A stretch of 64,000 nt of DNA from contig NZ_CP022463.1 in the NCBI RefSeq assembly GCF_002224485.1, positions 3,812,808-3,876,807 of the forward strand, read 5' to 3'. Origin of the DNA: Sinomonas sp. R1AF57. Lineage in GTDB: Bacteria > Actinomycetota > Actinomycetes > Actinomycetales > Micrococcaceae. A program made the position numbers and the translations under genes. How positions within the stretch are numbered: position 1 is the first letter of the stretch; every line of letters starts with the position of its first letter. The notes beneath the pieces are model-generated. The model was given only the letters and a program-made list of their open reading frames with translations, searched no databases and had not been told where the DNA came from. Below, one piece after another: positions 30,011-53,996 of the stretch.

Positions 30011-30111
30011 GGTACAGCAGCGCAGTGACGGCCGAGAAGGAGGCAGCCGTCAACCGGCCCACTCATCCGTGCGGCACACGGCGCCTCGGCGGAGCCGCGA
30101 TTTCATTTGCT

Positions 30112-30123
30112 TGACGTTCGTCA
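30112..30123. promoter_or_regulatory. Palindromic operator in the kynA promoter
   Basis: TGACG-TT-CGTCA, a perfect 5-bp-arm palindrome overlapping a likely -35 box (TTGACG, 30111-30116), 21 bases before the kynA start. The same element, with 6-bp arms, occurs at 47328-47341 upstream of the anthranilate-CoA genes. Confidence 0.6.
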
Positions 30124-30144
30124 CCTAGCTGATATCGTGGGGAT

Positions 30145-31014
30145 ATGCCCCAGACCAGCCCCGCCGAGCCCGCCGGCGTCCGCCGGATCGAGGACGGCGT
30201 CCGCACCGACTTCCGCGGCGCCATGACGTACGGGCGCTACCTCGCCCTCGACGAGCTCCTCCACAGCCAGCGCCCGCAGAGCCAGCCCGAGCACCACGAC
30301 GAGCTGCTCTTCATCGTCCAGCACCAGACGAGCGAGCTGTGGCTCAAGCTCGTCCTGCACGAGCTGCTCGAGGCCCGCCGCCTGATGGACGCCGACGACC
30401 TCGGCAAGGCCCTCAAGTGCCTCGCCCGCGTCAAGGCGATCCAGCGGACGCTGACCGAGCAGTGGAGCGTCCTGGGCACCCTCACCCCCCGCGAGTACTC
30501 CCAGTTCCGCGGCTCGCTCGGCAACTCCTCGGGCTTCCAGTCGTACCAGTACCGCGCCATCGAGTTCGTGCTCGGCAACAAGCACGCGAAGATGCTGGAC
30601 GTCTTCAGCTCCGAGCCCGAAGCACACGCGCTCCTGTCCCGGATCCTCGGCGAGCCCACGGTCTACGACTCGTTCCTCGCGCTCGTGGCCCGCAGCGGCT
30701 ACGACGTGCCGCGGGACGTCCTCGAGCGCGACGTGCGCGAGCCGTGGACCTTCCGCGAAGACCTCGTGCCCGTGTTCCAGCGGATCTACGAGGAGGACTC
30801 CACGCCGTGGGGCCTCTACGAGGCCTGCGAGAGCCTCGTGGACCTCGAGGACAACTTCCAGGCGTGGCGCTTCCGGCACCTGCGCACGGTCCAGCGCACC
30901 ATCGGCTTCAAGCGCGGCACTGGCGGCTCCTCCGGCGTCGACTTCCTCAAGCGAGCCCTCGACCTGACCTTCTTCCCCGAGCTGTATGCCGTCCGCACGG
31001 CGATCGGAGCCTGA
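30145..31014 (+). CDS. kynA: Tryptophan 2,3-dioxygenase
   Basis: A 289-residue haem enzyme that converts L-tryptophan to N-formylkynurenine. The family core is intact: IVQHQTSELW with distal H60, FRGSLGNSSGFQSYQYR (121-137) holding the substrate-carboxylate Arg, and proximal haem ligand H245 in RFRHLRTVQRTIG, with GTGGSSGVDFLK after it. Length is normal. First gene of kynA-kynU-paaX; the next gene starts 2 bases after its stop. No formamidase gene (kynB) is visible in the operon, so that step must be supplied elsewhere. A palindrome in the promoter suggests control shared with the cluster at 46821-54452. Confidence 0.96.
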   Translation: MPQTSPAEPAGVRRIEDGVRTDFRGAMTYGRYLALDELLHSQRPQSQPEHHDELLFIVQHQTSELWLKLVLHELLEARRLMDADDLGKALKCLARVKAIQRTLTEQWSVLGTLTPREYSQFRGSLGNSSGFQSYQYRAIEFVLGNKHAKMLDVFSSEPEAHALLSRILGEPTVYDSFLALVARSGYDVPRDVLERDVREPWTFREDLVPVFQRIYEEDSTPWGLYEACESLVDLEDNFQAWRFRHLRTVQRTIGFKRGTGGSSGVDFLKRALDLTFFPELYAVRTAIGA

Positions 31015-31016
31015 TC

Positions 31017-32309
31017 ATGACCCTCCCCAGCACCCCCGCCTCTGCCGCGCACGACGCCGGCCGCGCACCCGGCGCCGTCGGCCTCCCCACGCTGGACGCG
31101 GCAGCGCTCGACGCCGCTGACCCGCTCGCGGCGTTCCGCGGCCGGTTCCTCGAGCCCGAGGGCGAGCCGGTGGTCGCGTACCTCGACGGGAACTCGCTCG
31201 GACGGCCGCTTGCCGACATCGGCGACCGGCTCGCCGCGTTCACGGCTGGGCCGTGGGGCCAGCGCCTCATCCGGGCCTGGGACGAGGAGTGGATGGACGA
31301 GCCGTTCCGGCTCGGCGACCGCCTCGGCGAGGTGGTCCTCGGGGCCGCGGCCGGGCAGACCGTCGTGGCCGATTCGACGTCGGTCATGATCTACAAGCTG
31401 GTCCGCGCAGCGCTCGACGCCGCCGGGCGGGGCCGGGATGAGCTCGTGATCGACCGCGAGAACTTCCCCACCGACAGGTTCCTCGTCGAGGGCATCGCCG
31501 CCGAGCGCGGCTCCACTCTCCGCTGGGTCACGCCGGACCCCGCCACCGGGGTGACCGCCGCGGACGTGGAGGCCGCGCTCTCGCCGCGCACCGCCGTCGT
31601 GCTCCTGAGCCACATCGCCTACCGGTCCGGGTACGTCGCCGACGCGCCCGCGATCACCGACGCCGTGCACCGCGCCGGGGCGCTCGTGGTGTGGGACCTG
31701 TGCCATTCGGCGGGGTCGGTGCCGGTTGAGCTGGACGCGTGGGGCGTGGACCTGGCGGTGGGGTGCACCTACAAGTACCTCAACGGCGGCCCGGGCTCGC
31801 CCGCGTTCGGGTACGTGCGCGCCGGCCTGCAGGAGACGCTGCAGCAGCCGATCTGGGGCTGGATGGGCGCCGCCGACCCGTTCGGCATGACCGAGTCCTA
31901 TGTCCCTGCCGCCGGCATGCGCCGCTTCATCACGGGCACGCCGCCGATCCTCGCCATGCAGCCGCTCTCCGCCATGGTCGAGCTGATCGCCGAGGCCGGC
32001 GGGATCGACGCCGTGCGCGCCAAGTCCGTGCTCCTGACCGAGTTCGCCGCGGCCCTCGCGGACCGCGATCTGGCCCCGCTCGGGGTGCAGTTCGCGAGCC
32101 CCCGCGACCCGTCCGTGCGCGGCTCGCACATCACCATCAACCACCCGCGCTTCCGCGAGGTCACCGCGCTGCTGTGGGAGCGGGGCGTCATCCCCGACTT
32201 CCGGCCCCCGCACGGGCTGCGGATCGGGCTGTCGCCGCTGAGCACGTCTTTCGCGGAGGTGGAGGCCGGGATCGAGGCGATCCGGGCCGCCCTGACCGAG
32301 CTCGCATGA
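31017..32309 (+). CDS. kynU: Kynureninase
   Basis: A 430-residue PLP enzyme that cleaves L-kynurenine to anthranilate and alanine. Family marks are YLDGNSLGRP (55-64), WDLCHSAG with cofactor-binding D227, and the Schiff-base lysine K253 in CTYKYLNGGPG; the C-terminal RGSHITINHP and GLRIGLSPLSTS are also typical. Tightly coupled to kynA (2-base gap) and overlapping the PaaX-family gene by 4 bases (ATGA). Product anthranilate is the expected substrate of the CoA ligase at 49808. Confidence 0.96.
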   Translation: MTLPSTPASAAHDAGRAPGAVGLPTLDAAALDAADPLAAFRGRFLEPEGEPVVAYLDGNSLGRPLADIGDRLAAFTAGPWGQRLIRAWDEEWMDEPFRLGDRLGEVVLGAAAGQTVVADSTSVMIYKLVRAALDAAGRGRDELVIDRENFPTDRFLVEGIAAERGSTLRWVTPDPATGVTAADVEAALSPRTAVVLLSHIAYRSGYVADAPAITDAVHRAGALVVWDLCHSAGSVPVELDAWGVDLAVGCTYKYLNGGPGSPAFGYVRAGLQETLQQPIWGWMGAADPFGMTESYVPAAGMRRFITGTPPILAMQPLSAMVELIAEAGGIDAVRAKSVLLTEFAAALADRDLAPLGVQFASPRDPSVRGSHITINHPRFREVTALLWERGVIPDFRPPHGLRIGLSPLSTSFAEVEAGIEAIRAALTELA

Positions 32310-33160
32310 CCCAGAGCCTCCAGACGGGACGCGAGCCGCGCGTCGCGGATGACATGGTCTCGCGCCCCGGCAGCGCCGTCTCCCTCCTGCGCACGGTGGT
32401 GGGGCTGTACCTGCGCGAGGCCGGTGGCTGGATGCCCACCGACGCGTTCCTGGCCCTGCTCGGCGCCCTCGGCGTGCCCGTGCCGCAGGCCCGCACGGCG
32501 CTGAGCCGCGTCAAGGCGCGCGGCCTCCTGCAGGCTCAGGCGCACGACGGCGTCCCCGGCCTCGCGCTAGCACCCGGCGCCGAGGCGATGCTCGCCCGGG
32601 GCGACCGGCGCATCCACGAGCCGCGGGCCATGGCGGCCGACGGCGAGTGGTGCCTCATCGTGTTCTCCGTGCCGGAGGCGATGCGGGATGCCAGGCACCA
32701 GCTCCGCAAGCAGCTGAAGTGGATCGGCTGTGGCACCGTCGAGGCCGGGGTGTGGATCTGCCCGGACTTCCTGCGCGGCGAGGTCGAGGACGCCGTCGAG
32801 GGGCTCGGCCTGTCGGGCCATGTGGTGCTGTTCACCGCGCGGGGGCTGCCCCCGGGGCCGGTCGCGGCAGGGCAGGTGCGGCAGTGGTGGGACCTCAAGG
32901 GGATCGCGCAGCTGCACCGGGAGTTCGTCCAGGGGCAGTCGGGCGTGCCGGAGCACAGCCGGAGTGCCGCCGAGAGCTTTGCCGCCTACGTCGGATGCAT
33001 CGACGCGTGGCGGGTCATCCCGTACCTCGATCCGGGACTGCCGCCCGAGCTGCTGCCGCGGGATTGGCCCGGGCCGGAGTGCATCGCTCTGTTCCTGCGG
33101 ATCCGCGAGGCCCACGCGGGCCCGGCGGCCGACTTCGTGCGGGGCGTCCTCGCCCCGTAG
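32306..33160 (+). CDS. PaaX family transcriptional regulator, first
   Basis: A 284-residue regulator of the PaaX family, whose prototype represses phenylacetate genes and is released by phenylacetyl-CoA. It has an N-terminal winged-helix (about 22-85; ALGVPVPQARTALSRVKARGLL), a central domain with WCLIVFSVPEAMRDARHQLRKQLKWIGCGTVEAGVWICP (about 114-152), and a C-terminal helical domain with WDLKGIAQLHREFV and YLDPGLPPELLPRDWPG. The ATG at 32306 overlaps the kynU stop, so it is produced with the kynurenine enzymes. An aryl-CoA such as 2-aminobenzoyl-CoA is a reasonable but unproven effector. Confidence 0.92.
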   Translation: MTQSLQTGREPRVADDMVSRPGSAVSLLRTVVGLYLREAGGWMPTDAFLALLGALGVPVPQARTALSRVKARGLLQAQAHDGVPGLALAPGAEAMLARGDRRIHEPRAMAADGEWCLIVFSVPEAMRDARHQLRKQLKWIGCGTVEAGVWICPDFLRGEVEDAVEGLGLSGHVVLFTARGLPPGPVAAGQVRQWWDLKGIAQLHREFVQGQSGVPEHSRSAAESFAAYVGCIDAWRVIPYLDPGLPPELLPRDWPGPECIALFLRIREAHAGPAADFVRGVLAP

Positions 33161-33285
33161 GGCCAGTCCTTGCGGGGTCGCGTCCCGTTCGTTGCGGGGT
33201 CTCGTCCCCTGACGCGCTGGGCTCACCCTCTCGTCGCCCCCGCGCTCAACCCGGCCCCGCCAGGTCCGGCGGTAGGCTCGGAGGC

Positions 33286-34155
33286 ATGTCCACCGTCGCC
33301 GCAGCGGAGTCCAAGGCCGCGGCCGCTTCCCCGCGGCACCAGCAGCTGATCGTCACAGTGTTCGGCCTCTACGCGCGAGAGCACGGGGGCGTCCTGCCGG
33401 TCGCGGGACTCGTGCGGCTGCTCGGAGACCTCGGCGTCGAGGGCGCCGGCGTGCGCTCCGCGGTCTCGCGGCTCAAGAAGCGCGGCGTCCTCGAGAGCGT
33501 CAAGCTCGGCAACGCCGCCGCCTACCGCCTCGGTCCCGGCCTCGAAGAGGTCTTCTCCGAGGGCGACGAGCGCATCTTCTCGCCCCGCCGCGCCCGCCCT
33601 GAGGACCCGTGGCTGCTCGCCGCCTTCTCTGTGCCAGAGTCCCAGCGCGCGCTGCGCCACCAGATCCGTGCGGCCTTCACACGTCTGGGCTTCGGCGCCG
33701 TCTCGCCGGGGCTGTGGATCGCCCCGGCCTCACTCGAGCGGGAGGCCCGGCGCCGCCTCGCCCGGGCGGGTGCCGCCGGCTACGTCGAGTTCTTCCGCGC
33801 CGAGTACGCGGACGACGGCGAGGGGTCGGGCATGCGCGGCCGCGTCGCCGAGTGGTGGGACCTGGAGGCGCTCGACGCGACCTACGCGGAGTTCGTGGAG
33901 GGCCAGCGCGAGGTGCGCGAACGCTGGGAAGGCGCGCCGGCGCCGTCGTCCGCGGACGACGACGCCGCCGCGTTCACCGACTACGTCTCGCTGCTCACGC
34001 ACTGGCGGCGGCTCCCGTATCTCGACCCGGGGCTTCCCGCTGAGTACCTCCCGGAGAACTGGCAGGGGCTCGTGGCGCAGCAGCTGTTCGCGGAGCTCCA
34101 CGCGAAGCTCGCCGGCCCCGCCCGGCGCCATGCCGAGCGGGTCCTTGGAGCGTAA
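33286..34155 (+). CDS. PaaX family transcriptional regulator, second
   Basis: A 289-residue PaaX-family paralogue of the gene just upstream, with the same three-part layout: winged helix (about 18-80; DLGVEGAGVRSAVSRLKKRGVL), central WLLAAFSVPESQRALRHQIRAAFTRLGFGAVSPGLWIAP, and C-terminal WWDLEALDATYAEFVEGQ and YLDPGLPAEYLPENWQG. It has its own leader of 125 bases and GGAGG before the ATG at 33286, so it may be expressed separately. Two adjacent PaaX-type genes suggest division of labour, for example sensing a CoA ester at two promoters (inference). Convergent with kdgK. Confidence 0.92.
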   Translation: MSTVAAAESKAAAASPRHQQLIVTVFGLYAREHGGVLPVAGLVRLLGDLGVEGAGVRSAVSRLKKRGVLESVKLGNAAAYRLGPGLEEVFSEGDERIFSPRRARPEDPWLLAAFSVPESQRALRHQIRAAFTRLGFGAVSPGLWIAPASLEREARRRLARAGAAGYVEFFRAEYADDGEGSGMRGRVAEWWDLEALDATYAEFVEGQREVRERWEGAPAPSSADDDAAAFTDYVSLLTHWRRLPYLDPGLPAEYLPENWQGLVAQQLFAELHAKLAGPARRHAERVLGA

Positions 34156-34209
34156 GAACGCGCCGACGCATTGCCCTCGCGGCATAACATCCAGTCGCGC
34201 GGGCCAGCG

Positions 34210-35187
34210 CTACCGCAGAACAGGATCGCGCGGATCAAGAAGGTGCAGCTCGCTCCTGCGCGGCATGCCCTCCCAATCGCCGGGGACCAGGCACGCGAAG
34301 GCGCCGACCTGGTTGGCGACCATCAGGCGCTGTTCGACGTCGGACCCGCGGAGCAGCTCCGACAGGTACCCGCCGACGAACGCGTCCCCGGCGCCGACCG
34401 TGTCCACCACGCGTACCGGAACCGCTTCTCGGGCGTACTCGGCGCCGTCGACCAGCGCGAGGCAGCCGCGGGCCCCGCGCTTGAGGACCACCTGGGTGGG
34501 GCCCAGCGCCGCGATCCGCCTGGCCAGTTCCCCGGCATCGCTGGAGGGGCCGACGGCGATCGCGGCCTCGTCGTCGCCGGCGAACACGATGTCGGCCTGG
34601 GCGATGATCTGCCGGAAGTGCTGGCCGGCCAGCTTGGCGGGCCAGAGCGCAGCGCGGTAGTTCAGGTCGAAGGACACGAGTGCCCCGGCCGCCTTGGCGC
34701 GGTCGACGGCCTCCTGCGTGGCGGCGGCGGCCGAGCCGGAGAGGGCGGGCGTGATCCCGGTGATGTGGAGCAGCCGACAGCTCTCGATGACGCCTGCGGG
34801 GAGATCGTCCGGCCGCAGGCGCGATCCTGCGCTGCCCGACCGGTAGTACGAGACCTTGAGGGCCTCAGCGGTGCGCCGTTCTTTGATCATGAATCCAGTC
34901 GGCGCGGCGTCGTCGCGGACGGGCACGACGGCGATGCCCTCCGCGCGCAGCTCGCGGACCACCAGGTCTCCCGGGCCGTCCGCGCCGACACGCCCGATCC
35001 AGGCCACCGAAGTCCCCAGACGCTGCAGCGCCACGGCAACGTTGCTCTCGGCTCCGCCGACGCCCAGGCTCCAGCTGTGCACGTGGGGCAGCGGGCCGGG
35101 GGCGTCCGCCTTGAACAGGGCCATGGTCTCGCCCAACGTGACGACCTCGGCGGCCGGAAGCTGCGCGCTCTCCCGTGCCGCCGTCAC
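34210..35187 (-). CDS. kdgK: 2-dehydro-3-deoxygluconate kinase (PfkB family)
   Basis: A 325-residue ribokinase-fold sugar kinase. It shows the N-terminal VTLGETMALF, the GG switch in SLGVGGAESNVAVALQRLG (about 40-58), and the C-terminal PfkB signature DTVGAGDAFVGGY with the catalytic Asp (about 264-276). It is predicted to phosphorylate KDG to KDPG in the cytosol. Last gene of the leftward uronate operon; its start overlaps the aldolase stop by 4 bases. Substrate assignment rests on the adjacent KDPG aldolase and kduI/kduD. Confidence 0.88.
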   Translation of the reverse strand: MTAARESAQLPAAEVVTLGETMALFKADAPGPLPHVHSWSLGVGGAESNVAVALQRLGTSVAWIGRVGADGPGDLVVRELRAEGIAVVPVRDDAAPTGFMIKERRTAEALKVSYYRSGSAGSRLRPDDLPAGVIESCRLLHITGITPALSGSAAAATQEAVDRAKAAGALVSFDLNYRAALWPAKLAGQHFRQIIAQADIVFAGDDEAAIAVGPSSDAGELARRIAALGPTQVVLKRGARGCLALVDGAEYAREAVPVRVVDTVGAGDAFVGGYLSELLRGSDVEQRLMVANQVGAFACLVPGDWEGMPRRSELHLLDPRDPVLR

Positions 35188-35840
35188 ACGGACGCCTTTG
35201 CCGTTGCGGACTCGGCTTCTGACGCGAGGGCGACGGCCTCCGAGGTGCGCCGGGTGATCTGGGCGAAGTCGCCGGCCTGCACCCGGTCGCGCGGCACCAT
35301 CCAGGAGCCGCCGACCGCAGCCACGGCCGGAATTGCGAGGTAGTCGTGGAGGTTCTTCGGGCCGATCCCGCCCGTGGGCACGAAGCTCAGGTCCCCGAAC
35401 GGCGCCGCAAGCGCTGCGATCGCGGGAGCGCCACCCGAGGTTCCGGCCGGGAAGAACTTGACCGTGGTCAGTCCCAGCTCGAGGGCAGCCTGGATTTCGG
35501 TGGCCGTGACGGCCCCCGGAAGCGCCAGCACGCCGTGGTCATGGCAGCGTTCCACGACCGCCCGGCTGAGGCCTGGCGAGACCACGTAGGAGGCGCCCGC
35601 CTCCACCGCCCGGTCGACCTGCTGGCTCGTCAGCACCGTGCCTGCCCCAACGACCATGTCCCCGCGGTCCGCCATGGCGCGGATCGAGTCGGCAGCGGCG
35701 GGGGTGCGGAACGTGACCTCGGCGACGGGCAGCCCGCCGGCCACGAGGGCGGCGGCCAGCGGCGCGGCGTCGCGCGCGTCGTCGAGCACGACGACGGGCA
35801 CGAGGCGTGCGGCGCGCAGCGCGGAAAGCGTCTCACTCAT
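35184..35840 (-). CDS. eda: KDPG aldolase
   Basis: A 218-residue class I aldolase that splits 2-dehydro-3-deoxy-6-phosphogluconate into pyruvate and glyceraldehyde 3-phosphate. The Schiff-base lysine is K128 (TTVKFFPAG), the catalytic Glu E41 (VAEVTFRT), and the phosphate loop GGIGPKN follows. ATG at 35840, 12 bases after the kduI stop. Together with kdgK it closes the Entner-Doudoroff-like end of the pathway. Confidence 0.93.
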   Translation of the reverse strand: MSETLSALRAARLVPVVVLDDARDAAPLAAALVAGGLPVAEVTFRTPAAADSIRAMADRGDMVVGAGTVLTSQQVDRAVEAGASYVVSPGLSRAVVERCHDHGVLALPGAVTATEIQAALELGLTTVKFFPAGTSGGAPAIAALAAPFGDLSFVPTGGIGPKNLHDYLAIPAVAAVGGSWMVPRDRVQAGDFAQITRRTSEAVALASEAESATAKASV

Positions 35841-35851
35841 CGGTGCCGCCC

Positions 35852-36691
35852 TCACCGCAGGGAGGTGACGGGAACGGCGTCCATGTCGGTGAAGGACTGG
35901 TTCTCCCCGGCCATGGCCCACACGAAGGAGTACGCGGCCGTCCCGACGCCGGAGTGCAACGACCAGGAGGGCGAGATGACGGCCTGCCGGTCCGCGACCA
36001 TGAGGTGCCGGGTCTCGGCCGGCTGGCCCATCAGGTGCAGCACACGGGCGTCCTGCGGGACGTCGAAGTAGAGGTAGCACTCCGTGCGCCGGTCGTGCGT
36101 GTGCGCCGGCATGGTGTTCCACATCGATCCGGGATGCAGCTCCGTCACGCCCATGACGATCTGGCAGGACTCCACGCCCTTCTCGTGGATGTACTGGTTC
36201 AGGGTCCGCCGGTTGCTGGTGAGCTGGTCTCCCAGCTCCAGCACCGTGCCCTCGCCCCTGAGCACGAGCTGCGTGGGGTAGGTGGTGTGCGCGGGAGCGC
36301 TGAACAGGTAGAACTGGGCACCGGCGGCCTCCTCGCCCTCGGGGGCGTCCGCGAAGGCGATGTCGCGAGTGCCGCGCCCGACGTACAGGCAGGCGCCGTG
36401 CGGCATGGTGAACACCTCGCCGTCGGCGGTGACCGTTCCGGTGCCGCCCACGTTGACGATCCCGACCTCGCGATTGGCGAGGAAGTACTCCGCGCGGAGC
36501 TCGTCGAAGGTCGGGAGTGGCAGCTCGCGTCCGGCGGGGACGGCGCCGCCGAGGATGATCCGATCGTGATGCGTGTAGACGACCTTCACCTCGCCGGGCA
36601 CGAAGACGTCCTCGATGAGGAAGCGCTCCCGCAGCTCGGCGGTATCGAAATGCGGCAGCTGGCCGGGGCTCGTGGCGTATCGCTGTTCCAT
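35852..36691 (-). CDS. kduI: 5-dehydro-4-deoxy-D-glucuronate isomerase
   Basis: A 279-residue cupin-fold zinc isomerase converting 5-keto-4-deoxyuronate (DKI) to 2,5-diketo-3-deoxygluconate (DKII). The zinc site is visible as PAHTHDRRTE (two His and a Glu, about 191-200), with the distal His in SWSLHSG near 240. The N-terminal RYATSPGQ and FDTAELRERFLIE blocks are family-typical. Between kduD and eda in the leftward uronate operon, as expected for pectin or glycosaminoglycan degraders. Confidence 0.95.
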   Translation of the reverse strand: MEQRYATSPGQLPHFDTAELRERFLIEDVFVPGEVKVVYTHHDRIILGGAVPAGRELPLPTFDELRAEYFLANREVGIVNVGGTGTVTADGEVFTMPHGACLYVGRGTRDIAFADAPEGEEAAGAQFYLFSAPAHTTYPTQLVLRGEGTVLELGDQLTSNRRTLNQYIHEKGVESCQIVMGVTELHPGSMWNTMPAHTHDRRTECYLYFDVPQDARVLHLMGQPAETRHLMVADRQAVISPSWSLHSGVGTAAYSFVWAMAGENQSFTDMDAVPVTSLR

Positions 36692-36739
36692 GAAGTGCTC
36701 TCCAGTCTCAGAGTGGGTCGGTGTGGTGGGGCGGCGGGG

Positions 36740-37504
36740 TCAGCGGACCAGCCAGCCGCCGTCGACGGGGATGATTGCGCCGTTCAGGTAGTCCGAGGCC
36801 GCCGAGGCCAGGAAGACGAAGGGGCCCTGCAGGTCGGTGGGCGTGCCCCATCGCCCGGCCGGGATCCGGTCGAGGATGGACTTCTCGCGCGACTCGTCGG
36901 AGCGGATGGGGGCTGTGTTGTCGGTGGCCATGTAGCCGGGGGCGATGGCATTGACGTTCACCCCGTGGGCCGCGAGCTCGTTCGCGAATGACTTCGTGAG
37001 CCCCGCGACGGCGTGCTTGCTCGCTGCGTAGCCGGGCACGAGGATGCCGCCCTGGAACGAGAGCATGGAGGCGACGTTGATGATCTTCCCCCCGCCCTGC
37101 GGCACATAGCGCCGCGCAGCGGCCTGAGAGAGGTGGAAGACGGCGTCGAGATTGACTGCCATCACGTCGTCCCAGTCCGACGCGGGGTGATCCAGGAGCG
37201 GGGCGCGGCGGATGATCCCCGCGTTGTTGACGAGGATGTCGATGCGGCCAAGGGCATCGACCACCTGCTGGATGGACTCGTCCAGCTCCCGGGGCGTCGC
37301 TGAGACGAGGTCCTGCTCGATCGTGTGGACCCGCCGTCCGAGCGCCCGGACCTTCTCGGCGGTTTCCTCCGCCGGGCTCTGGCTCAGCAGGGCGACGTCG
37401 GCCCCCGCCTCGGCGAGTGCGACGGCGGCGCCTTGCCCGAGGCCACGGGACGCGCCCGTCACGAGGGCGACCTTTCCGTCCAGGCGGAACGAGTCGAGAA
37501 CCAT
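36740..37504 (-). CDS. kduD: 2-dehydro-3-deoxy-D-gluconate 5-dehydrogenase
   Basis: A 254-residue short-chain dehydrogenase. Coenzyme motif TGASRGLG is at 16-23, NNAG at about 92-95, and the catalytic Ser and Tyr-x3-Lys are in NVASM and YAASK. It reduces DKII to KDG, the substrate of kdgK. Family assignment as KduD is from high similarity in pattern (APGYMATDNTAPIR) and from the flanking kduI gene. Confidence 0.93.
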   Translation of the reverse strand: MVLDSFRLDGKVALVTGASRGLGQGAAVALAEAGADVALLSQSPAEETAEKVRALGRRVHTIEQDLVSATPRELDESIQQVVDALGRIDILVNNAGIIRRAPLLDHPASDWDDVMAVNLDAVFHLSQAAARRYVPQGGGKIINVASMLSFQGGILVPGYAASKHAVAGLTKSFANELAAHGVNVNAIAPGYMATDNTAPIRSDESREKSILDRIPAGRWGTPTDLQGPFVFLASAASDYLNGAIIPVDGGWLVR

Positions 37505-37534
37505 CAGTGTGCCTCCATTAGTGGTCAGCGGGGG

Positions 37535-38698: not shown

Positions 38699-38735
38699 CT
38701 CGTCTCCGCTTGTCGTGTGCGTGGGTGGTTGGCTT

Positions 38736-38768
38736 GTCGAAGGGGGAACCTCAGGTTCCCCCTTCGAC
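38736..38768 (-). terminator. Hairpin between the MHS permease and GH105 genes
   Basis: A perfect 16-bp inverted repeat with one central base (GTCGAAGGGGGAACCT and its complement). It is placed just past the permease stop, upstream of the GH105 start. It may lower read-through from permease to hydrolase rather than end the operon. Confidence 0.75.
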
Positions 38769-38778
38769 GGCACGGTGG

Positions 38779-40155: not shown

Positions 40156-40267
40156 GTGCTGACTTCCTTCATCGACGTTGGTGATGAGCCGGCGCTGGCC
40201 CCGCAGGGGCACTGGTCGTGACGGTGGATGCTGGGGGAGGGATGCGAGGCGTTGAAGCCTTCGCTTC

Positions 40268-40281
40268 TTGAATCGTTTCAT
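40268..40281. promoter_or_regulatory. LacI-type operator upstream of the uronate operon
   Basis: TTGAATCGTTTCAT, centred on CG (10 of 12 core positions symmetrical), is the exact reverse complement of the site at 40861-40874. It is upstream of the MHS permease start. Confidence 0.7.
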
Positions 40282-40367
40282 CAATCGTAGAAGGTGAGGT
40301 GCGCCACGTCAACGCCCCGAGGATGCTTGTTTCCATTCGGCCGTGCAGCGTTCCCCGCCCGGGCCTC

Positions 40368-40736
40368 CTACTCGAGATGGAAGTACTGCAGGAGCCCCTC
40401 GGGTGCCGACCCTTCGACGAAGTACTGGGCCATCTGGGCCTGCCACCGCGCATTCACCGGATGCCTTGCCATAAGGGTCTCGGCGTCCCAGGCGTCATCG
40501 GCCTCGAAGTACCCCACGACCAGGCCGTCCTCGGCCCGGAGGAACAGCGAGTAGTTGCGCCATCCGGTCCCGCGCAGGGCGTCAAGCATCTCGGGCCACA
40601 CCCTCTGGTGCACCTCGACGTACTCAGCGAGCTTCTCGGGGCGGATCCGCAGGAGGAAGCAGTGCCGGGTGCGGAGGACCTCCTGGGGCACTTCGACCAG
40701 ACCGATCAGCTCGGAGGGTGTTGGGTCGGGATTCAT
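40368..40736 (-). CDS. rhaM: L-rhamnose mutarotase
   Basis: A 122-residue ferredoxin-like dimeric protein that interconverts alpha- and beta-L-rhamnose. Family patterns are HCFLLRIRPEKLAEYVEVHQRVWPEML with the catalytic His, NYSLFLRAEDGLVVGYFE, and the C-terminal WQAQMAQYF near LLQYFHLE. Divergent from rhaI, with two LacI-type sites in the 211-base gap. The 122-residue form is slightly longer than the E. coli protein (104). Confidence 0.93.
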   Translation of the reverse strand: MNPDPTPSELIGLVEVPQEVLRTRHCFLLRIRPEKLAEYVEVHQRVWPEMLDALRGTGWRNYSLFLRAEDGLVVGYFEADDAWDAETLMARHPVNARWQAQMAQYFVEGSAPEGLLQYFHLE

Positions 40737-40799
40737 GGGGCTCCTTTGGCCGGAAGGGCTGTGATGTGCACCTCGGTGGGGGTTTCATCGTAGAAGATA

Positions 40800-40815
40800 T
40801 TTGAGACGTTTCAAA
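40800..40815. promoter_or_regulatory. LacI-type operator in the rhaM-rhaI gap
   Basis: TTTGAGACGTTTCAAA, 14 of 16 positions symmetrical around a central CG. Probably bound by the LacI protein at 45763. Confidence 0.68.
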
Positions 40816-40860
40816 TGCGGGCGTGATCGTTGACGTGACCTGATTCACCGGCTACCGTGG

Positions 40861-40874
40861 ATGAAACGATTCAA
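40861..40874. promoter_or_regulatory. LacI-type operator upstream of rhaI
   Basis: ATGAAACGATTCAA, the exact inverse of 40268-40281, 73 bases before the rhaI start. Confidence 0.7.
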
Positions 40875-40947
40875 TAAATAGGGAACAGGCCGCGTCGAGT
40901 CGCCCAGGCCGCTCTCCTGCGTCGGTCCTCACAGAGAAGAGAAGATC

Positions 40948-42114
40948 ATGACAGCCTTCGACGACATCGCACCGCGTCTCGCCGCGCAGGCCATCGAGCT
41001 GCCCTCGTGGGCCTTCGGCAATGCCGGCACCCGCTTCAAGGTCTTCGGCACCCCCGGAACCCCCCGCACAGTCGAGGAGAAGATCTCCGACGCGGCGACG
41101 GTCCACCGCTTCACGGGCCTCGCTCCCACCGTGGCACTGCACATCCCTTGGGACGCCGTGGACGACTATGCCGCGCTGTCCCGCCACGCTGCCGACGAGG
41201 GGGTGGCCCTGGGCACGATCAACTCCAACACGTTCCAGGACGAGGACTACAAGTTCGGCTCGCTGACCCACACCGACGCGGCCGTACGGCGCAAGGCCAT
41301 CGACCACCACCTGCAGTGCCTCGAGATCATGGAGGCGACCGGCTCCCGGGACCTGAAGATCTGGCTCGCTGACGGCACGAACTACGCTGGCCAGGGTGAC
41401 ATGCGCGGCCGCCAGGACCGCCTCGCCGAGTCGCTCGCAGTGATCTACAGCCAGCTCGGGATGGAGCAGCGGCTTGTCCTGGAGTACAAGTTCTTCGAGC
41501 CCGCCTTCTACCACACGGACGTGCCGGACTGGGGCACCGCGTACACCCAGGTCGCCGCCCTCGGGGAGCGCGCCGTCGTGTGCCTGGACACGGGGCACCA
41601 CGCCCCGGGCACCAACATCGAGTTCATCGTCATGCAGCTCCTGCGGCTCGGGAAGCTGGGGTCCTTCGACTTCAACTCCCGCAACTACGCCGACGACGAC
41701 CTCATCGTCGGTGCCGCCGACCCGTTCCAGCTGTTCCGCGTCATGGTGGAGGTTGTCCGCGGGGGAGGCCTGGACCACGAGTCCGGCGTGGCGTTCATGC
41801 TCGACCAGTGCCACAACGTGGAGGAGAAGATCCCCGGCCAGATCCGCTCGGTCCTCAACGTCCAGGAGATGACTGCGCGGGCGCTGCTGCTGGACCGCGT
41901 GGCACTCACCGCGGCGCAGGAGGCCGGCGACGTGCTCGGAGCGCACCAGATCCTCATGGACGCCTTCTACACCGATGTCCGTCCCGCCCTGGCCGCGTGG
42001 CGGGAATCCCGAGGCCTGCCCGCCGACCCCATGCGCGCCTACGCGGCCTCGGGCTACCAGCAGCGCATCGCCGACGAGCGTGTCGGCGGCGCCCAGGCCT
42101 CCTGGGCCTCCTGA
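40948..42114 (+). CDS. rhaI: L-rhamnose isomerase (Pseudomonas stutzeri type)
   Basis: A 388-residue TIM-barrel metal isomerase converting L-rhamnose to L-rhamnulose. Residues typical of the RhaI subgroup include SWAFGNAGTRFKVF near the N-terminus, LALEYKFFEPAFYHTD-like LVLEYKFFEPAFYHTD (Glu and His metal ligands), CLDTGHHAPGTNIEF, and FDFNSRNYADDDL with the acidic ligands. Unrelated in close detail to E. coli RhaA. First gene of rhaI-rhaDE-rhaB-lacI, preceded by two operators. AGAGAAGA lies before the ATG at 40948. Confidence 0.94.
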   Translation: MTAFDDIAPRLAAQAIELPSWAFGNAGTRFKVFGTPGTPRTVEEKISDAATVHRFTGLAPTVALHIPWDAVDDYAALSRHAADEGVALGTINSNTFQDEDYKFGSLTHTDAAVRRKAIDHHLQCLEIMEATGSRDLKIWLADGTNYAGQGDMRGRQDRLAESLAVIYSQLGMEQRLVLEYKFFEPAFYHTDVPDWGTAYTQVAALGERAVVCLDTGHHAPGTNIEFIVMQLLRLGKLGSFDFNSRNYADDDLIVGAADPFQLFRVMVEVVRGGGLDHESGVAFMLDQCHNVEEKIPGQIRSVLNVQEMTARALLLDRVALTAAQEAGDVLGAHQILMDAFYTDVRPALAAWRESRGLPADPMRAYAASGYQQRIADERVGGAQASWAS

Positions 42115-42159
42115 TCCATCCCGCCCGTCGACCCACCGACTTCCAAGGAACGCCAGATC

Positions 42160-44217
42160 ATGAACACCATCACCGACAGCCCCGCGCAGACCGTCGTCGC
42201 GGACCTGATCGCCCGCTCCAACCAGCTCGGCGCCGACCCGAGGAACACCAACTACGCCGGTGGCAACACGTCCGCGAAGGGAAGGGCCACGGACCCAGTC
42301 ACGGGCGAGGACGTCGAGCTGCTGTGGGTCAAGGGATCGGGCGGTGACCTCGGCACCCTGACCGAGCAGGGCCTCGCGGCGCTTCGCCTCGACAGGCTGC
42401 GGGCCCTCGCGGACATGTACCCGGGCGTCGAGCGCGAGGACGAGATGGTCGCCGCGTTGGACTACTGCCTGCACGGCAGGGGAGGGGCAGCCCCCTCGAT
42501 CGACACCGCCATGCACGGCCTGGTGGGCGCCGCCCACGTGGACCACCTCCACCCGGACTCCGGCATCGCCATCGCCACAGCGGCCGACGGCGAGAGGCTC
42601 ACCTCCGAGGTCTTCGGCGGGAAGGTCGTGTGGGTGCCGTGGCGCCGCCCCGGGTTCCAGCTGGGACTGGACATCGCCGCCATCAAGGATGCCAACCCGC
42701 AGGCCGTGGGCTGCATCCTGGGCGGACACGGCATCACGGCCTGGGGCGAGACCAGCGAGGAGGCGGAGGCGAACTCCCTGTCGATCATCGCCGCGGCGGA
42801 GAGGTACATCGCCGAGAACTCGAAGGCCGAGCCCTTCGGTCCGGTCCTGCCCGGCTACGAGGCGCTCCCCGAGGCTGAGCGGCGCGCCAAGGCGGCCGCG
42901 CTGGCGCCGACGATCCGGGGCCTGGCCTCTCACGACCGGCCGCAGGTCGGCCACTTCACCGACGACCCCCGGGTCCTCGACTTCCTCGCCGGCGCGGAGC
43001 ACCCCCGTCTGGCGGCCCTGGGCACCTCATGCCCGGACCACTTCCTGAGGACCAAGGTCAAGCCCCTGGTCATGGACCTCCCCGCAGATGCATCGGTCGA
43101 CGACTCCGTCGCCAGGCTGAAGGAGCTCCACGAGGCCTACCGGTCCGACTACCAGGCCTACTACGACCGCCACGCCGTCCCGGACTCCCCAGCGATCCGC
43201 GGGGCTGACCCGGCCATCGTGCTCGTGCCCGGCGTCGGGATGTTCTCCTTCGGCAAGGACAAGCAGACCGCGCGCGTCGCCGGCGAGTTCTACCTCAACG
43301 CCATCAACGTCATGCGGGGTGCCGAGGGGGTATCCTCCTACGCCCCCATCGACGAGGCCGAGAAGTTCCGCATCGAGTATTGGGCCCTGGAGGAGGCCAA
43401 GCTCCAGCGCATGCCCGAGCCGAAGCCACTGGCGACGCGGATCGCGCTCGTGACCGGCGCGGCCTCGGGCATCGGCAAGGCCATCGCCACCCGCCTGGCG
43501 GCCGAGGGGGCGTGCGTGGTGATCGCCGACCTCGACGCGGAGAAGGCGCGTGCGGCGGCCGCTGAGATCGGCGGACCCGACGTCGCCGTCGGCGTTGCCG
43601 TGAACGTCGCCGACGAGGCAGCTGTTCAGGCCGCCATCCAGGAGTCGCTTCTCGCCTTCGGCGGACTGGATCTCGTGGTCAACAACGCCGGGCTGTCGCT
43701 GTCAAAGCCGCTTCTGGAGACCACCGAGAAGGACTGGGACCTGCAGCACGACGTCATGGCCAAGGGCTCCTTCCTCGTGTCCAAGAACGCCGCCCGCGTG
43801 CTCATCGACCAGAACATGGGCGGAGACATCGTGTACATCTCCTCGAAGAACTCGATCTTCGCCGGGCCCAACAACATCGCCTACTCCGCGACCAAGGCCG
43901 ACCAGGCCCATCAGGTCCGTCTCCTGGCAGCGGAGCTGGGCGAGCACGGCATCAAGGTCAACGGCATCAACCCCGACGGCGTTGTGCGCGGCTCGGGGAT
44001 CTTCGCCGGAGGCTGGGGCGCCAAGCGCGCGGCGGTGTACGGCGTCCCCGAGGAGGAGCTGGGCCAGTACTATGCCCAGCGGACCCTGCTCAAGCGCGAG
44101 GTCCTCCCCGAAAACGTCGCCAACGCCGTCTTCGCCCTCTGCACCTCGGACTTCTCGCACACCACCGGCCTGCACGTTCCGGTCGACGCCGGCGTCGCCG
44201 CCGCCTTCCTGCGCTGA
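42160..44217 (+). CDS. rhaDE: Bifunctional rhamnulose-1-phosphate aldolase/lactaldehyde dehydrogenase
   Basis: A 685-residue fusion (RhaE/YuxG type). Residues 1-about 410 form a class II aldolase domain with GGNTSAKG (28-35), metal His residues in AAHVDHLHPDS and GGHGITAWG, and RTKVKPLVMDLP. Residues about 425-685 form a short-chain dehydrogenase with TGAASGIGKAIA (about 431-442), VNNAGLSLSKP, SSKNSIF and catalytic YSATK. It splits rhamnulose 1-phosphate into dihydroxyacetone phosphate and lactaldehyde; the dehydrogenase domain is presumed to act on lactaldehyde. ATG at 42160 after AAGGA, 45 bases from rhaI. Confidence 0.94.
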   Translation: MNTITDSPAQTVVADLIARSNQLGADPRNTNYAGGNTSAKGRATDPVTGEDVELLWVKGSGGDLGTLTEQGLAALRLDRLRALADMYPGVEREDEMVAALDYCLHGRGGAAPSIDTAMHGLVGAAHVDHLHPDSGIAIATAADGERLTSEVFGGKVVWVPWRRPGFQLGLDIAAIKDANPQAVGCILGGHGITAWGETSEEAEANSLSIIAAAERYIAENSKAEPFGPVLPGYEALPEAERRAKAAALAPTIRGLASHDRPQVGHFTDDPRVLDFLAGAEHPRLAALGTSCPDHFLRTKVKPLVMDLPADASVDDSVARLKELHEAYRSDYQAYYDRHAVPDSPAIRGADPAIVLVPGVGMFSFGKDKQTARVAGEFYLNAINVMRGAEGVSSYAPIDEAEKFRIEYWALEEAKLQRMPEPKPLATRIALVTGAASGIGKAIATRLAAEGACVVIADLDAEKARAAAAEIGGPDVAVGVAVNVADEAAVQAAIQESLLAFGGLDLVVNNAGLSLSKPLLETTEKDWDLQHDVMAKGSFLVSKNAARVLIDQNMGGDIVYISSKNSIFAGPNNIAYSATKADQAHQVRLLAAELGEHGIKVNGINPDGVVRGSGIFAGGWGAKRAAVYGVPEEELGQYYAQRTLLKREVLPENVANAVFALCTSDFSHTTGLHVPVDAGVAAAFLR

Positions 44218-44245
44218 TGCTGGTCGTGATCAGAGGAGAGAGAGC

Positions 44246-45730
44246 ATGACGACATCCGTGGCGGCGGTCGACCTCGGGGCCACGAGCGGCAGGGTCATCC
44301 TCGGCGGCCTCGAGGACGGGCGGCTTCGCCTGCGCCACGTCGCCCGCTTCCCCAACCAGCCGGTGCAGCTGCACGAAGGCGGCCGTCTCGGCCTGCACTG
44401 GAACATTGCGGAGCTCTACCGTTCCCTGAGTGCCGGCCTTGCCCAGGCCCTCCGGGACGAGCCCCGACTGGCCTCCATCGGGATCGACTCCTGGGCCGTG
44501 GACTACGCGCTGCTGCGCCGCGGACGCATGCTCCGGCTGCCCTACCACTACCGCGACGGGCGCACCGCCCGAGGGGTGGAGGCGGTGCACGGCCGGGTGC
44601 CCGCCGTCGAGCTCTACCAGCGCAACGGGCTGCAGCACCTGCCCTTCAACACGGTCTTCCAGCTGGCTGCCGACTCGGAGGAGGGAGACCTCGCGCTCGC
44701 AGACCGGGCGCTGCTCATCCCGGACCTCATCGCCTACTGGCTCACGGGGGAAGAGGCCACCGAGGCAACCAACGCCTCGACGACCGGGCTTGTCGACGTC
44801 CGGTCCGGTCAGTGGGACACGGCGCTCTCCGATCGGCTTGGCCTGCCGCGGGACCTCTTCCCATCCCTGGTCCATCCGGGGCACCGGCTCGGCGCCCTGC
44901 TGCCGGAGGTGGCGGCAGAACTCGGGGCCTCCCGCACGGTGCCCGTCACCGCCGTCGGCTCCCACGACACCGCCTCTGCCGTGGTGGCGGTTCCGGCCGC
45001 CGACGACGAGTCCGCCTTCATCTCCTCTGGCACCTGGTCGCTGGTCGGGCTCGAGCTCGACGCTCCCGTGCTCACGCCCGAGAGCCTGGCGGCGAACTTC
45101 ACGAACGAGGGCGGAGTGGACGGGCGCGTGCGCTACCTCAAGAACGTCTCGGGGCTGTGGCTGCTCTCGGAGTCGATCCGCACGTGGGAGGGGCTGGGGG
45201 CGACGGACGCCCAGCGCACCAGCGACCTCGCAGCCCTGATCGCCGAGGCGGCCGCGGTGGCCCGCCCCCAGCCGGTCTTCGATGCTTCCGACGAGCGCTT
45301 CACGGCCCCGGGGGACATTCCCTCCCGCATCGCGGCGTGGTGCCTGGAACACGACCTCGAGCCGCCGCGCGGCCGGGCCGAGTTCGTCCGGTCCATCCTC
45401 GAGTCGCTCGCTGCCGCGTACGCGGCCACGATCGAGCAGGCCGAGCAGCTCTCAGGCAAGCGGATCCGCACCGTGCACATCGTCGGCGGCGGGTCGCAGA
45501 ACACCCTGCTCTGCCAACTCACGGCCGACCGCACGGGGCGGACGGTCCTCGCCGGACCCGTCGAGGCCACCGCGATCGGCAACGTCCTGGTCCAGATGAG
45601 GGCCACAGGCATCCTCTCGGGGAGCCTTGAGGCCCTCCGGAGCGTCGTGGCCCGCACGTTCGAGCCGGTCCGCTACCCACCCAAGGCCCACGCCCCGAGC
45701 CTTTCCCGCGCTGGCCATTGGGTACGATGA
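44246..45730 (+). CDS. rhaB: Rhamnulokinase
   Basis: A 494-residue FGGY-family kinase. The ATP-binding phosphate-1 motif is AAVDLGATSGRVILG (6-20), substrate residues lie in SIGIDSWAVDYALL, the catalytic Asp in VGSHDTASAV, and the adenosine motif is HIVGGGSQNTLLCQL near the C-terminus. It phosphorylates L-rhamnulose before the aldolase acts. GAGGAGA precedes the ATG at 44246. The next gene, a LacI regulator, begins about 30 bases later. Confidence 0.94.
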   Translation: MTTSVAAVDLGATSGRVILGGLEDGRLRLRHVARFPNQPVQLHEGGRLGLHWNIAELYRSLSAGLAQALRDEPRLASIGIDSWAVDYALLRRGRMLRLPYHYRDGRTARGVEAVHGRVPAVELYQRNGLQHLPFNTVFQLAADSEEGDLALADRALLIPDLIAYWLTGEEATEATNASTTGLVDVRSGQWDTALSDRLGLPRDLFPSLVHPGHRLGALLPEVAAELGASRTVPVTAVGSHDTASAVVAVPAADDESAFISSGTWSLVGLELDAPVLTPESLAANFTNEGGVDGRVRYLKNVSGLWLLSESIRTWEGLGATDAQRTSDLAALIAEAAAVARPQPVFDASDERFTAPGDIPSRIAAWCLEHDLEPPRGRAEFVRSILESLAAAYAATIEQAEQLSGKRIRTVHIVGGGSQNTLLCQLTADRTGRTVLAGPVEATAIGNVLVQMRATGILSGSLEALRSVVARTFEPVRYPPKAHAPSLSRAGHWVR

Positions 45731-45762
45731 CACTCTCACCTGTGAGGAGGGGGAATCCGGAC

Positions 45763-46785
45763 ATGAACCGTGGCCGACCGCCGGTGAGCATCAAGGACGT
45801 CGCCCGCCACGCGAACGTCTCCATCGGCACGGTGTCCAACGTCCTGAACCGCCCCGAGATGGTCTCCGAGGATCGCCGGCGCCGCGTCACCCAGGTGATC
45901 GAAGAGCTGGGCTACGTCCGGAACGACGTCGCCCGCCAGCTCAAGGCTGGCCAATCCCTCACCGTGGGCCTGGTCGTGCAGGACTCGGCCAACCCCTTCT
46001 ACAACGAGATCGCCCTGGGCGCGGAGGCCGCGGCGGAGAAGCTCGGCCAGGCCGTCATCCTGGGCAACGCGGGCCTGTCGCCGGCCAGGGAGGGCCTCTA
46101 CCTCGACCTCTTCCAGGAGCAGCGTGTCCGGGGCGTGCTCATCACTCCGCAGTCGGCGGACCGCGCCCGCATCGACACCCTCCGCTCGCGCGGCATTCCC
46201 GTGATTCTCGTCGACGAGCACGCCTCGTCCAGCCTGTACTGCTCGCTGGCCGTGGACGACATCGAAGGCGGCCGGCTCGCCGTCGAGCATCTGCTCTCGA
46301 CCGGGCGCCGCCGGATCGCCTTCGTCGGCGGCCCCGACTCGCTGCACCAGGTCCGCGACCGCCGCACCGGTGCGCGTCGCGCCGTCCAAGGCGTCCCCGG
46401 CGCGTCCCTCGAGGACTTCGCCAGCGAGGCCCTGACTGTACTGGAGGGCAGGCGGATCGGGGAGCAGATCGCGGACCTGCCGCAGGACCGGCGCCCCGAT
46501 GCGGTCTTCGCCGCAAACGACCTGGTGGCGATCGGCCTGCTGCAGGCCTTCGCGTTCCACCGCAGGATCCGTGTCCCCGAGGACATTGCACTCATCGGCT
46601 ACGACGACATCGACTTCGCGACCTCGGCGATCGTGCCGCTGTCGTCGATACGCCAGCCGGCGCGGCTGATCGGCCGCACCGCGGTGGAACTGCTCGAGGA
46701 CGAGAGCACGGACCCCGAGCACCGCCACCGGCACGTCAGCTTCCAGCCGGAGCTTGTGGTCCGCGATTCGACCGCCGCCCCTTAA
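45763..46785 (+). CDS. LacI family regulator of the rhamnose/uronate locus
   Basis: A 340-residue LacI-type regulator. The HTH and hinge lie at 7-65 (VSIKDVARHANVSIGTVSNVLN, VRNDVARQLKAGQS), with a periplasmic-binding-protein-like effector domain to the end (VFAANDLVAIGLLQ, IALIGYDDIDFA). Last gene of the rha operon. It is the obvious candidate to bind the three CG-centred palindromes at 40268, 40800 and 40861, and so coordinate both divergent arms. The ATG at 45763 follows GAGGAGG; in-frame ATGs at 45718 and 45727 overlap rhaB. Confidence 0.92.
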   Translation: MNRGRPPVSIKDVARHANVSIGTVSNVLNRPEMVSEDRRRRVTQVIEELGYVRNDVARQLKAGQSLTVGLVVQDSANPFYNEIALGAEAAAEKLGQAVILGNAGLSPAREGLYLDLFQEQRVRGVLITPQSADRARIDTLRSRGIPVILVDEHASSSLYCSLAVDDIEGGRLAVEHLLSTGRRRIAFVGGPDSLHQVRDRRTGARRAVQGVPGASLEDFASEALTVLEGRRIGEQIADLPQDRRPDAVFAANDLVAIGLLQAFAFHRRIRVPEDIALIGYDDIDFATSAIVPLSSIRQPARLIGRTAVELLEDESTDPEHRHRHVSFQPELVVRDSTAAP

Positions 46786-46820
46786 CGCCGCGGCGGCGCC
46801 CGAGACCCCGGAGTCCCGCC

Positions 46821-47246
46821 CTACTCCGCCGCCGCGCCCGACCCGATCACCGCGACGCCCTTGATCTCGATGAGCGCCTCCTCCTGCCAGAGCCGGGTGA
46901 TGCCGATCCCGGCCATGGCGGGGTACTCGCGGCCCGCCATCTCGCGCCACAGGCGCCCGATCTCGCGCCCGTTGGCCATGTAGTCGTCCACGTCGGTCAG
47001 GTAGATCGTCACGTCGACGAGGTCCTCGGGCTTCCCGCCCGCCTCCTCCAGTGTGGCCAGGACGTTCCCGAACGCCTGCTTGAACTGCTCGACGATCCCG
47101 CCGGGCACGATCTTCATGTCCGCATCCAGGGCGGTCTGCCCGCCCAGATACACGGTGTTCCCCACCTTGATCCCGTGCGCGTAGCCCGACGGCTTGGGCA
47201 GCGACGCCGGGTTGATGGTCTCCTTGCGCGTCATGGTGGCCTCCAT
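46821..47246 (-). CDS. RidA family imine/enamine deaminase
   Basis: A 141-residue RidA/YjgF-family protein, cytosolic and probably trimeric. Family features are GIKVGNTVYLGGQTALDADM, QFKQAFGNVLATLEEAGG, DVTIYLTDVDDY and IEIKGVAVI; the active-site Arg common to RidA appears in ITRLWQEEALIEI. RidA proteins hydrolyse enamine/imine intermediates to ketones plus ammonia. Divergent from the FAH gene across a shared palindrome, so it likely serves the anthranilate-CoA pathway, whose dearomatised product is an enamine (inference). ATG at 47246 or 47234, both with good ribosome sites. Confidence 0.9.
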   Translation of the reverse strand: MEATMTRKETINPASLPKPSGYAHGIKVGNTVYLGGQTALDADMKIVPGGIVEQFKQAFGNVLATLEEAGGKPEDLVDVTIYLTDVDDYMANGREIGRLWREMAGREYPAMAGIGITRLWQEEALIEIKGVAVIGSGAAAE

Positions 47247-47327
47247 GGTGTCCTCCTGCGTCCCTCGCGGGCTCGTTCCAGTGTGGGGCTAGTCACGGCC
47301 GTGTGAGCCGTGTTACGTTGAGCTTAG

Positions 47328-47341
47328 TTGACGGACGTCAA
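47328..47341. promoter_or_regulatory. Palindromic operator between ridA-like and FAH genes
   Basis: TTGACG-GA-CGTCAA, a perfect 6-bp-arm palindrome in a 143-base divergent gap. It repeats the element in the kynA promoter at 30112-30123 (TGACG-N2-CGTCA). Confidence 0.68.
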
Positions 47342-53959: not shown

Positions 53960-53996
53960 CAGACTCTGAGTGAATCGCACAACCCAGGAGGACTCC

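Follow-up and report, generated by a model that had tools for sequence, protein, structure and literature searches.

A palindrome shared by kynurenine and anthraniloyl-CoA promoters of Sinomonas sp. R1AF57, a putative operator of two related PaaX-type repressors

Introduction

The closest described relative of the system analysed here is found on plasmid pAL1 of Arthrobacter sp. Rue61a (NC_009453.1), where the PaaX-type regulator MeqR2 is said to bind TGACGNNCGTcA at plasmid promoters and to be released by anthraniloyl-CoA, a result reportedly due to Niewerth et al. in 2013 (J Bacteriol). We take MeqR2 to be the downstream PaaX gene of pAL1, the names MeqR1 and MeqR2 being assigned here by position. 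This study concerns a stretch of 64,000 nucleotides from the genome of Sinomonas sp. R1AF57 (NZ_CP022463.1, positions 3,812,808 to 3,876,807; hereafter the window), in which a palindrome with the core TGACG-NN-CGTCA overlaps the promoter of kynA, the first gene of a kynurenine (kyn) operon, and recurs in the divergent gap between a RidA-family gene and an operon that starts with a fumarylacetoacetate hydrolase (FAH)-family gene and includes a 2-aminobenzoyl-CoA monooxygenase/reductase-type fusion (the fusion operon). Two PaaX-type genes, PaaX1 and PaaX2, follow kynU. Comparison of sequences across genomes suggests that the palindrome is probably an operator of PaaX-type repressors controlling anthranilate metabolism, with PaaX2 assigned to the fusion operon and PaaX1 to the kyn operon.

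Other described regulators are more distant. E. coli PaaX belongs to the same family, and its operator differs from this palindrome. PaaX2 matches the E. coli protein (PDB 8a39, aryl-CoA responsive by the molecule name of the entry) with 75.9 bits over residues 19-279, and the E. coli target genes differ from those proposed for PaaX1 and PaaX2. In Proteobacteria, kynurenine-pathway genes are regulated by KynR, an Lrp/AsnC-type protein; KynR and PaaX1 are both tied to kynurenine-pathway genes, but the two regulator families are unrelated.

Plasmid pAL1 carries the same cluster as the window, in the order RidA / FAH-cupin-TesB-ligase-fusion, together with two PaaX genes and with proteins that are 57-83% identical. 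The palindrome occupies the same RidA/FAH gap, as TGACGATCGTAA, and also lies upstream of the quinaldine operons: exact boxes are found at 9727 and 10133 between these operons, and a further one at 30318 before the downstream PaaX gene. The systems differ in the source of anthranilate, which on pAL1 is an upper pathway from quinaldine and in the window genome comprises kynurenine and isatin branches. While PaaX2 is 56% identical to MeqR2, the window genome has an additional, kyn-embedded PaaX1 (38% identical to MeqR2) with a longer operator, and the box that pAL1 has in the regulator's own promoter is missing from that of PaaX2. According to PMC3534580, two PaaX-related plasmid regulators take part in the control of quinaldine degradation in Rue61a, the plasmid- and chromosome-encoded ligases proved on heterologous expression to be anthranilate-CoA ligases, and a chromosomal homologue is 50% identical to the 2-aminobenzoyl-CoA monooxygenase/reductase of Azoarcus evansii. 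The same source cites the 2-aminobenzoate-CoA pathway of A. evansii, which likewise combines a ligase with a fused monooxygenase/reductase, although in a proteobacterium.

Results

The exact palindrome TGACGNNCGTCA occurs twice in the window, against a mean of 0.11 sites in 100 dinucleotide shuffles, only one of which reached at least two. One site, TGACGTTCGTCA at 30112-30123, overlaps the -35 element of kynA; the other, TTGACGGACGTCAA at 47328-47341 with its core at 47329-47340, lies within the RidA/FAH divergent gap. The original prediction had named these two positions and promoters, and in both respects it was right: the window has no exact match besides them, and both boxes are kept at orthologous positions elsewhere. 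Allowing up to two mismatches yields 55 sites where 49.65 are expected, and information therefore resides only in the exact or near-exact palindrome. Throughout the 3.94-Mb genome the exact core occurs 10 times (4 times for the reversed control, with about 6.8 expected from scaled window shuffles), and four of these sites are at anthranilate-related promoters, namely both window sites and another two at C1:3898315 and 3898351. The consensus reported for MeqR2 is present at candidate controlled promoters in the window, in the rest of the genome, in the RidA/FAH gaps of other genomes and on pAL1. By eye, the remaining six sites fall at a divergent ROK/sugar promoter, near an hmp/Rrf2-like pair, at gene ends and inside genes. 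The exact box at the promoter between the ROK-regulator and sugar genes (L001 1501-1512, TTTTGACGAACGTCAAG; genes assigned by eye) is probably the site of another regulator.

Presence of the kynA box tracks PaaX1, independently of the fusion operon. We compared the kynA promoters of 27 genomes with a PaaX1 gene (260 bp) with those of 31 kynA genes from 30 of the 59 kynA genomes that lack one (260 bp in 11 and 300 bp in 20). With at most one mismatch, the box is found in 18/27 PaaX1-positive genomes, 10 of them with an exact core, and in 0/31 kynA genes of PaaX1-negative genomes (Fisher p=1.5e-8 for 18/27 versus 0/30 genes, uncorrected for phylogeny; the further negative, G135, also has no box). 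Within the window's own genus the counts are 3/3 for PaaX1-positive and 0/4 for PaaX1-negative genomes. Among PaaX1-positive genomes the box is present in 9/16 with the fusion operon and 9/11 without it, and none of 14 kynA genes from fusion-positive, PaaX1-negative genomes carries it.

The conserved element at kynA appears to extend beyond the shared core. In the window it reads as a double dyad, TTTCA-N6-TGACG-TT-CGTCA-N6-TGATA (30101..30134, + strand), with outer arms at 30101-30105 and 30130-30134. It overlaps the kynA promoter (30111..30138, + strand; assigned by eye and alignment), whose -35 TTGACG (30111-30116) and -10 TATCGT (30133-30138) are separated by a 16-nt spacer. The promoter pattern TG[AC]CG...[TA]GATA is present with constant spacing in 25/27 PaaX1-positive and 0/31 PaaX1-negative kynA promoters; the columns that it requires are conserved by construction, which does not apply to the left arm, to CGTCA in the right half or to the T that follows TGATAnnn. 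The left arm, TWTCA, occupies the exact mirror position of TGATA on the same axis, with a complementarity of 0.92-1.0 at four of the five pairs across the 25 genomes. Conservation of the right arm is confounded because TGATA doubles as an extended -10; the left arm corresponds to no promoter element. The RidA and isatin boxes are without this dyad of outer arms. We therefore write the putative full kyn operator as TWTCA-N6-TGACG-NN-CGTCA-N6-TGATA, 34 bp in length.

Two different types of PaaX-related regulators are encoded next to kynU. PaaX1 (32306..33160, + strand), which overlaps the kynU stop, and PaaX2 (33286..34155, + strand) both exceed the gathering scores of PF07848, PF20803 and PF08223, and thus carry the N-terminal, the Cas2-like central and the C-terminal domain of the family. 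With 105.6 and 153.6 bits, respectively, against a cut-off of 264.55 for the TIGR02277 equivalog of PaaX proper, they classify by these models as members of the PaaX family and not as PaaX itself. In a tree of 97 PaaX proteins (taken from 111 rows with repeats dropped, and with MeqR1 and MeqR2 outside the tree), 27 kyn-linked proteins stand apart from 70 cluster-linked ones with support 100/99, at a split that calls for caution because long branches meet there. Each of the 27 kyn-linked PaaX1 genes has kynA, kynU or both as a neighbor. PaaX2 falls into the cluster-linked clade, against whose members MeqR1 and MeqR2 score highest; a place in the MeqR2-type clade and linkage to the operon are features of PaaX2 and not of PaaX1. 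A PaaX-type gene is present in 66 of 80 fusion-cluster loci, and 11 of the 14 loci without a local one were checked, all 11 having a PaaX2 homologue elsewhere in the genome (a partial one in the genome of L079). In the putative recognition-helix region, eight positions are conserved within each of the two clades, and at six of them the residue is identical between the clades. No box with two or fewer mismatches was found in the 125 bp before PaaX2, which may be transcribed from the promoter of kynA. A third PaaX-type gene, PaaX3 (G000:C1:3880990-3881829; L172 4982-5782), is located about 4 kb beyond the window.

Co-occurrence of PaaX1 and the fusion operon is enriched among kynA genomes but not obligatory (16/27 PaaX1-positive versus 13/59 PaaX1-negative genomes), leaving 11 genomes with PaaX1 and no fusion operon. 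At E<=1e-60, ten of these are without a ligase, and the eleventh has only a 32%-identical one. Anthranilate 1,2-dioxygenase scored above cut-off in 0/14 genomes, 11 of them PaaX1-positive and fusion-negative, and was rejected as the other route in those genomes, its sub-cut-off matches reaching at most 466 bits (G126, G074) against 671.9. Because the kyn box is kept together with PaaX1 where anthraniloyl-CoA genes are absent, anthraniloyl-CoA is a doubtful ligand for PaaX1.

At the fusion operon, the MeqR2-type box of the window is TGACGGACGTCA (47329..47340, + strand). We examined the best 80 of 507 fusion-operon loci, drawn from Sinomonas, Arthrobacter, Glutamicibacter, Kocuria, Streptomyces, Planotetraspora and others, and counted boxes in 75 of them, five being excluded because they lack a RidA(-)/gene(+) gap. 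A box with at most one mismatch is present in 61/75 gaps (3 exact), from Micrococcaceae to Streptomyces, compared to a mean of 0.87 and a maximum of 4 in shuffles and to 15/75 for the highest-scoring among 59 alternative permutations of the half-site. Two of the 61 gaps (L091 and L092) have their best match at the RidA end; at the usual position L092 also has a 1-mismatch box and L091 only a 2-mismatch one.

A further set of boxes lies outside the window, 38 kb further on, at a locus for isatin hydrolase and an aromatic transporter. Here two exact boxes 36 bp apart (C1:3898315 and 3898351; L012 6001-6048) precede an aromatic-acid-symporter-type gene (TIGR00895 match below cut-off) that is divergent from a cyclase gene, and a 1-mismatch box is found 61 bp before the cyclase start (L012 5863). 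Together, the three might form a cooperative operator. The cyclase (L012 5034-5813) scores 244.3 bits against isatin hydrolase 5nmp and 31.2 bits against kynurenine formamidase 4co9, by which it is an isatin hydrolase; its reading as kynB was rejected, the TIGR03035 score of 33.6 bits staying below the cut-off of 223.05. The thiamine-pyrophosphate (TPP) enzyme encoded after it may be a 2-oxoacid decarboxylase acting toward anthranilate. Presence of the isatin box goes with that of the fusion operon: the box was found at 11 of 21 isatin hydrolase promoters in fusion loci (9 exact; mean 0.20 and maximum 2 in shuffles), and in 12/18 genomes with the fusion operon versus 1/12 without (p=0.002, relatedness uncorrected). 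The latter counts refer to 400 bp at the best 30 loci of 53 positive genomes, with some overlap with the 21 loci.

In the sister genome G104 (L161), kynA-kynU-PaaX1-PaaX2-RidA/FAH-cupin-TesB-ligase-fusion form a contiguous run of about 11 kb, and each of the two promoters carries an exact box. In the window, the kyn-PaaX genes are parted from the RidA/FAH operon by a 12.6-kb sugar island (34210..46785), which comprises kdu genes, rhamnose isomerase, rhamnulose-1-P aldolase, a rhamnulokinase-like gene and a LacI/RbsR-type regulator and is absent between the operons in G104; the corresponding interval in G006 holds other genes, over about 4.6 kb. Since the genes are contiguous in one genome and parted by different stretches in two others, it is most likely that the two operons derive from a single locus that was later split. 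The idea of a shared operator at sites 17 kb apart is borne out insofar as both boxes are conserved, while the distance itself is secondary, everything being contiguous in G104.

The kyn operon consists of kynA (30145..31014, + strand), a tryptophan 2,3-dioxygenase gene that passes the TIGR03036 cut-off of 390.7 with 394.2 bits, and the kynureninase-like kynU (31017..32309, + strand), which with 234 bits stays just under the TIGR01814 cut-off of 246.4, followed by PaaX1. The kynA -10 hexamer ends 6 bases upstream of the ATG at 30145, and by eye some relatives are alike, which suggests that the kynA transcript is leaderless. A second kynA-like open reading frame of the genome (G000:C1:3525668-3526120; L173) aligns only at residues 10-37 and 163-288, about 125 internal residues being deleted in frame. 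No formamidase of the kyn route was identified; one candidate is a weaker match to PF04199 at C1:2471535-2471996.

Divergent from the fusion operon is the RidA-family gene (46821..47246, - strand; TIGR00004 63.3 bits, under the cut-off of 106.25). The operon itself, on the + strand, encodes the FAH-family protein (47390..48241; no model above its cut-off, 57% identical to pAL1), a cupin protein (48277..48771; PF07883, 83% identical to the pAL1 cupin), a TesB-type acyl-CoA thioesterase (48768..49721; TIGR00189 187.7 bits, under 292.85) and a benzoate/anthranilate-type CoA ligase (49808..51466; TIGR02262 344.5 bits, under 375.25) that is 71% identical to the AMP-binding gene at the same cluster position on pAL1. 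These are followed by the fusion of an FAD monooxygenase and an OYE-like reductase (51481..53889; PF01494 and PF00724; NF006101 1227.5 bits, above the cut-off of 1078; 76% identical to pAL1) and a small hotdog thioesterase (53970..54452, + strand; PF13279). The salicylyl-CoA reading of the fusion, which is its NCBIfam name, was set aside because the Rue61a plasmid and chromosomal ligases were assayed as anthranilate-CoA ligases, as PMC3534580 states.

Discussion

The computed box positions, their conservation, their co-occurrence with PaaX1 or the fusion operon, and synteny suggest that two related repressors read the palindrome. Most simply, the two would divide the work between them, PaaX1 serving the kyn operon and the MeqR2-type PaaX2 the anthraniloyl-CoA operon. 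PaaX2 would repress the RidA/FAH-cupin-TesB-ligase-fusion operon until the ligase has made anthraniloyl-CoA, the accumulation of which would release the repressor. PaaX1, encoded in the kyn operon, would repress kynA-kynU from the longer operator, in which the outer arms TWTCA/TGATA are added to the shared core, and its binding would cover the -35, spacer and -10 of kynA. The isatin hydrolase/transporter locus would probably be a third target, for either PaaX2 or PaaX3. Binding, repression and any cross-binding are inferred here, and the effector of PaaX2 is proposed by homology to MeqR2.

This picture departs from the original prediction in several respects. A single regulon under one regulator is not supported, since the kyn box tracks PaaX1 even where anthraniloyl-CoA genes are absent, and the two-branch scheme was incomplete, the isatin hydrolase branch lying outside the window. 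PaaX-type genes are indeed the usual neighbors of both operons (66/80 and 27/27), yet the two genes belong to different clades, and sensing of 2-aminobenzoyl-CoA, envisaged for both proteins, is doubtful for PaaX1. Shared regulation is also not novel in principle, as pAL1 has the same arrangement of box and PaaX gene, and the mechanism is probably already known from MeqR2 of Arthrobacter Rue61a. What is new is a PaaX1 clade that is linked to kyn and has a longer, double-dyad operator, together with the isatin branch; the titles of open-licence papers yielded nothing on PaaX control of the kyn or isatin branches.

Several observations weigh against a regulon of this kind. Six of the 10 genomic sites are away from anthranilate genes, 13 relatives have 5-18 exact core sites per genome, and four congeners without PaaX1 and the fusion operon hold 9, 9, 9 and 14, so that the genome scan which had been suggested as a check does not clearly separate them from genomes with the regulators (10, 17 and 18). 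We therefore rejected motif counting as proof of a regulon; the evidence is the placement and positional conservation of the box, not its total count. Nine of the 27 PaaX1-positive genomes, mostly of Glutamicibacter type with a degenerate right half, have no kynA box at one mismatch or fewer. The left half of the kyn box coincides with the -35 element, and part of its conservation is therefore promoter conservation. At the isatin hydrolase, 6/18 fusion-positive promoters lack the box, among them that of G104, in which none with at most one mismatch occurs within 400 bp and a PaaX3-type gene (L240 1785-2582), perhaps the counterpart of PaaX3, directly follows the isatin hydrolase and TPP enzyme genes. 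Finally, the regulon leaves the role of the 1-mismatch sites at 3319, 18311 and 19755 on pAL1 unexplained. The site at 19755 (L174 7756) is part of a reversed second copy of a RidA-gap-like promoter block, TTGAGCATATGTGACGATCGTAA, away from RidA.

A single MeqR2-type regulator, PaaX2, might instead run all loci, including kyn, through the shared core, with PaaX1 accessory or redundant. An identical core at all loci in this genome, the adjoining positions of PaaX1 and PaaX2 in the window and in G104, and the matching residues at 6/8 doubly conserved positions of the putative recognition helix would all fit. We nonetheless consider it unlikely, because the box is found at 0/14 kynA genes where the fusion operon occurs without PaaX1 and in 9/11 genomes in the converse situation, and because the outer arms are unique to the kyn operator. 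It is more doubtful still that another regulator, be it PaaX3 or a protein outside the PaaX family, recognizes the boxes or a part of them. This explanation gains weight from the PaaX3-type gene adjoining the isatin genes in G104, as well as from the existence of a third PaaX-type gene in the genome and the core at a divergent sugar-gene promoter. It is countered by the correlation of the kyn box with PaaX1 and of the isatin box with the fusion operon, and by the pAL1 precedent.

The kynA motif could also be mainly a conserved promoter, with -35 TTGACG and an extended -10, that is palindromic by chance, in which case only the RidA/FAH and isatin boxes would be true operators. The left half is indeed the -35 element, and the right half decays in the g22 and g23 genomes. 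However, the core is exact in 10/27 promoters and within one mismatch in 18/27, and occurs in none of the PaaX1-negative kynA promoters, while the upstream arm TTTCA, which is no promoter element and did not enter the pattern searched for, hardly varies and sits exactly at the mirror position. We regard this explanation as very improbable.

PaaX1 keeps its operator in genomes where no fusion operon or close ligase was found, and a PaaX-family protein may therefore sense something other than anthraniloyl-CoA. It is possible, and we put this forward tentatively, that the PaaX1 clade constitutes a new kynurenine-pathway repressor, acting on a 34-bp double-dyad operator and responding in genomes without anthraniloyl-CoA genes to a different signal, perhaps a kynurenine-pathway metabolite. 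In that event, kyn promoters could act as sensors for such metabolites. The core shared with MeqR2-type operators would then let repressors with different signals couple the tryptophan and isatin routes to anthranilate degradation. The analysis provides a testable regulatory map for soil Actinobacteria in which tryptophan and isatin breakdown are joined to the aerobic CoA route for anthranilate, complete with candidate regulators, operator bases and promoters.

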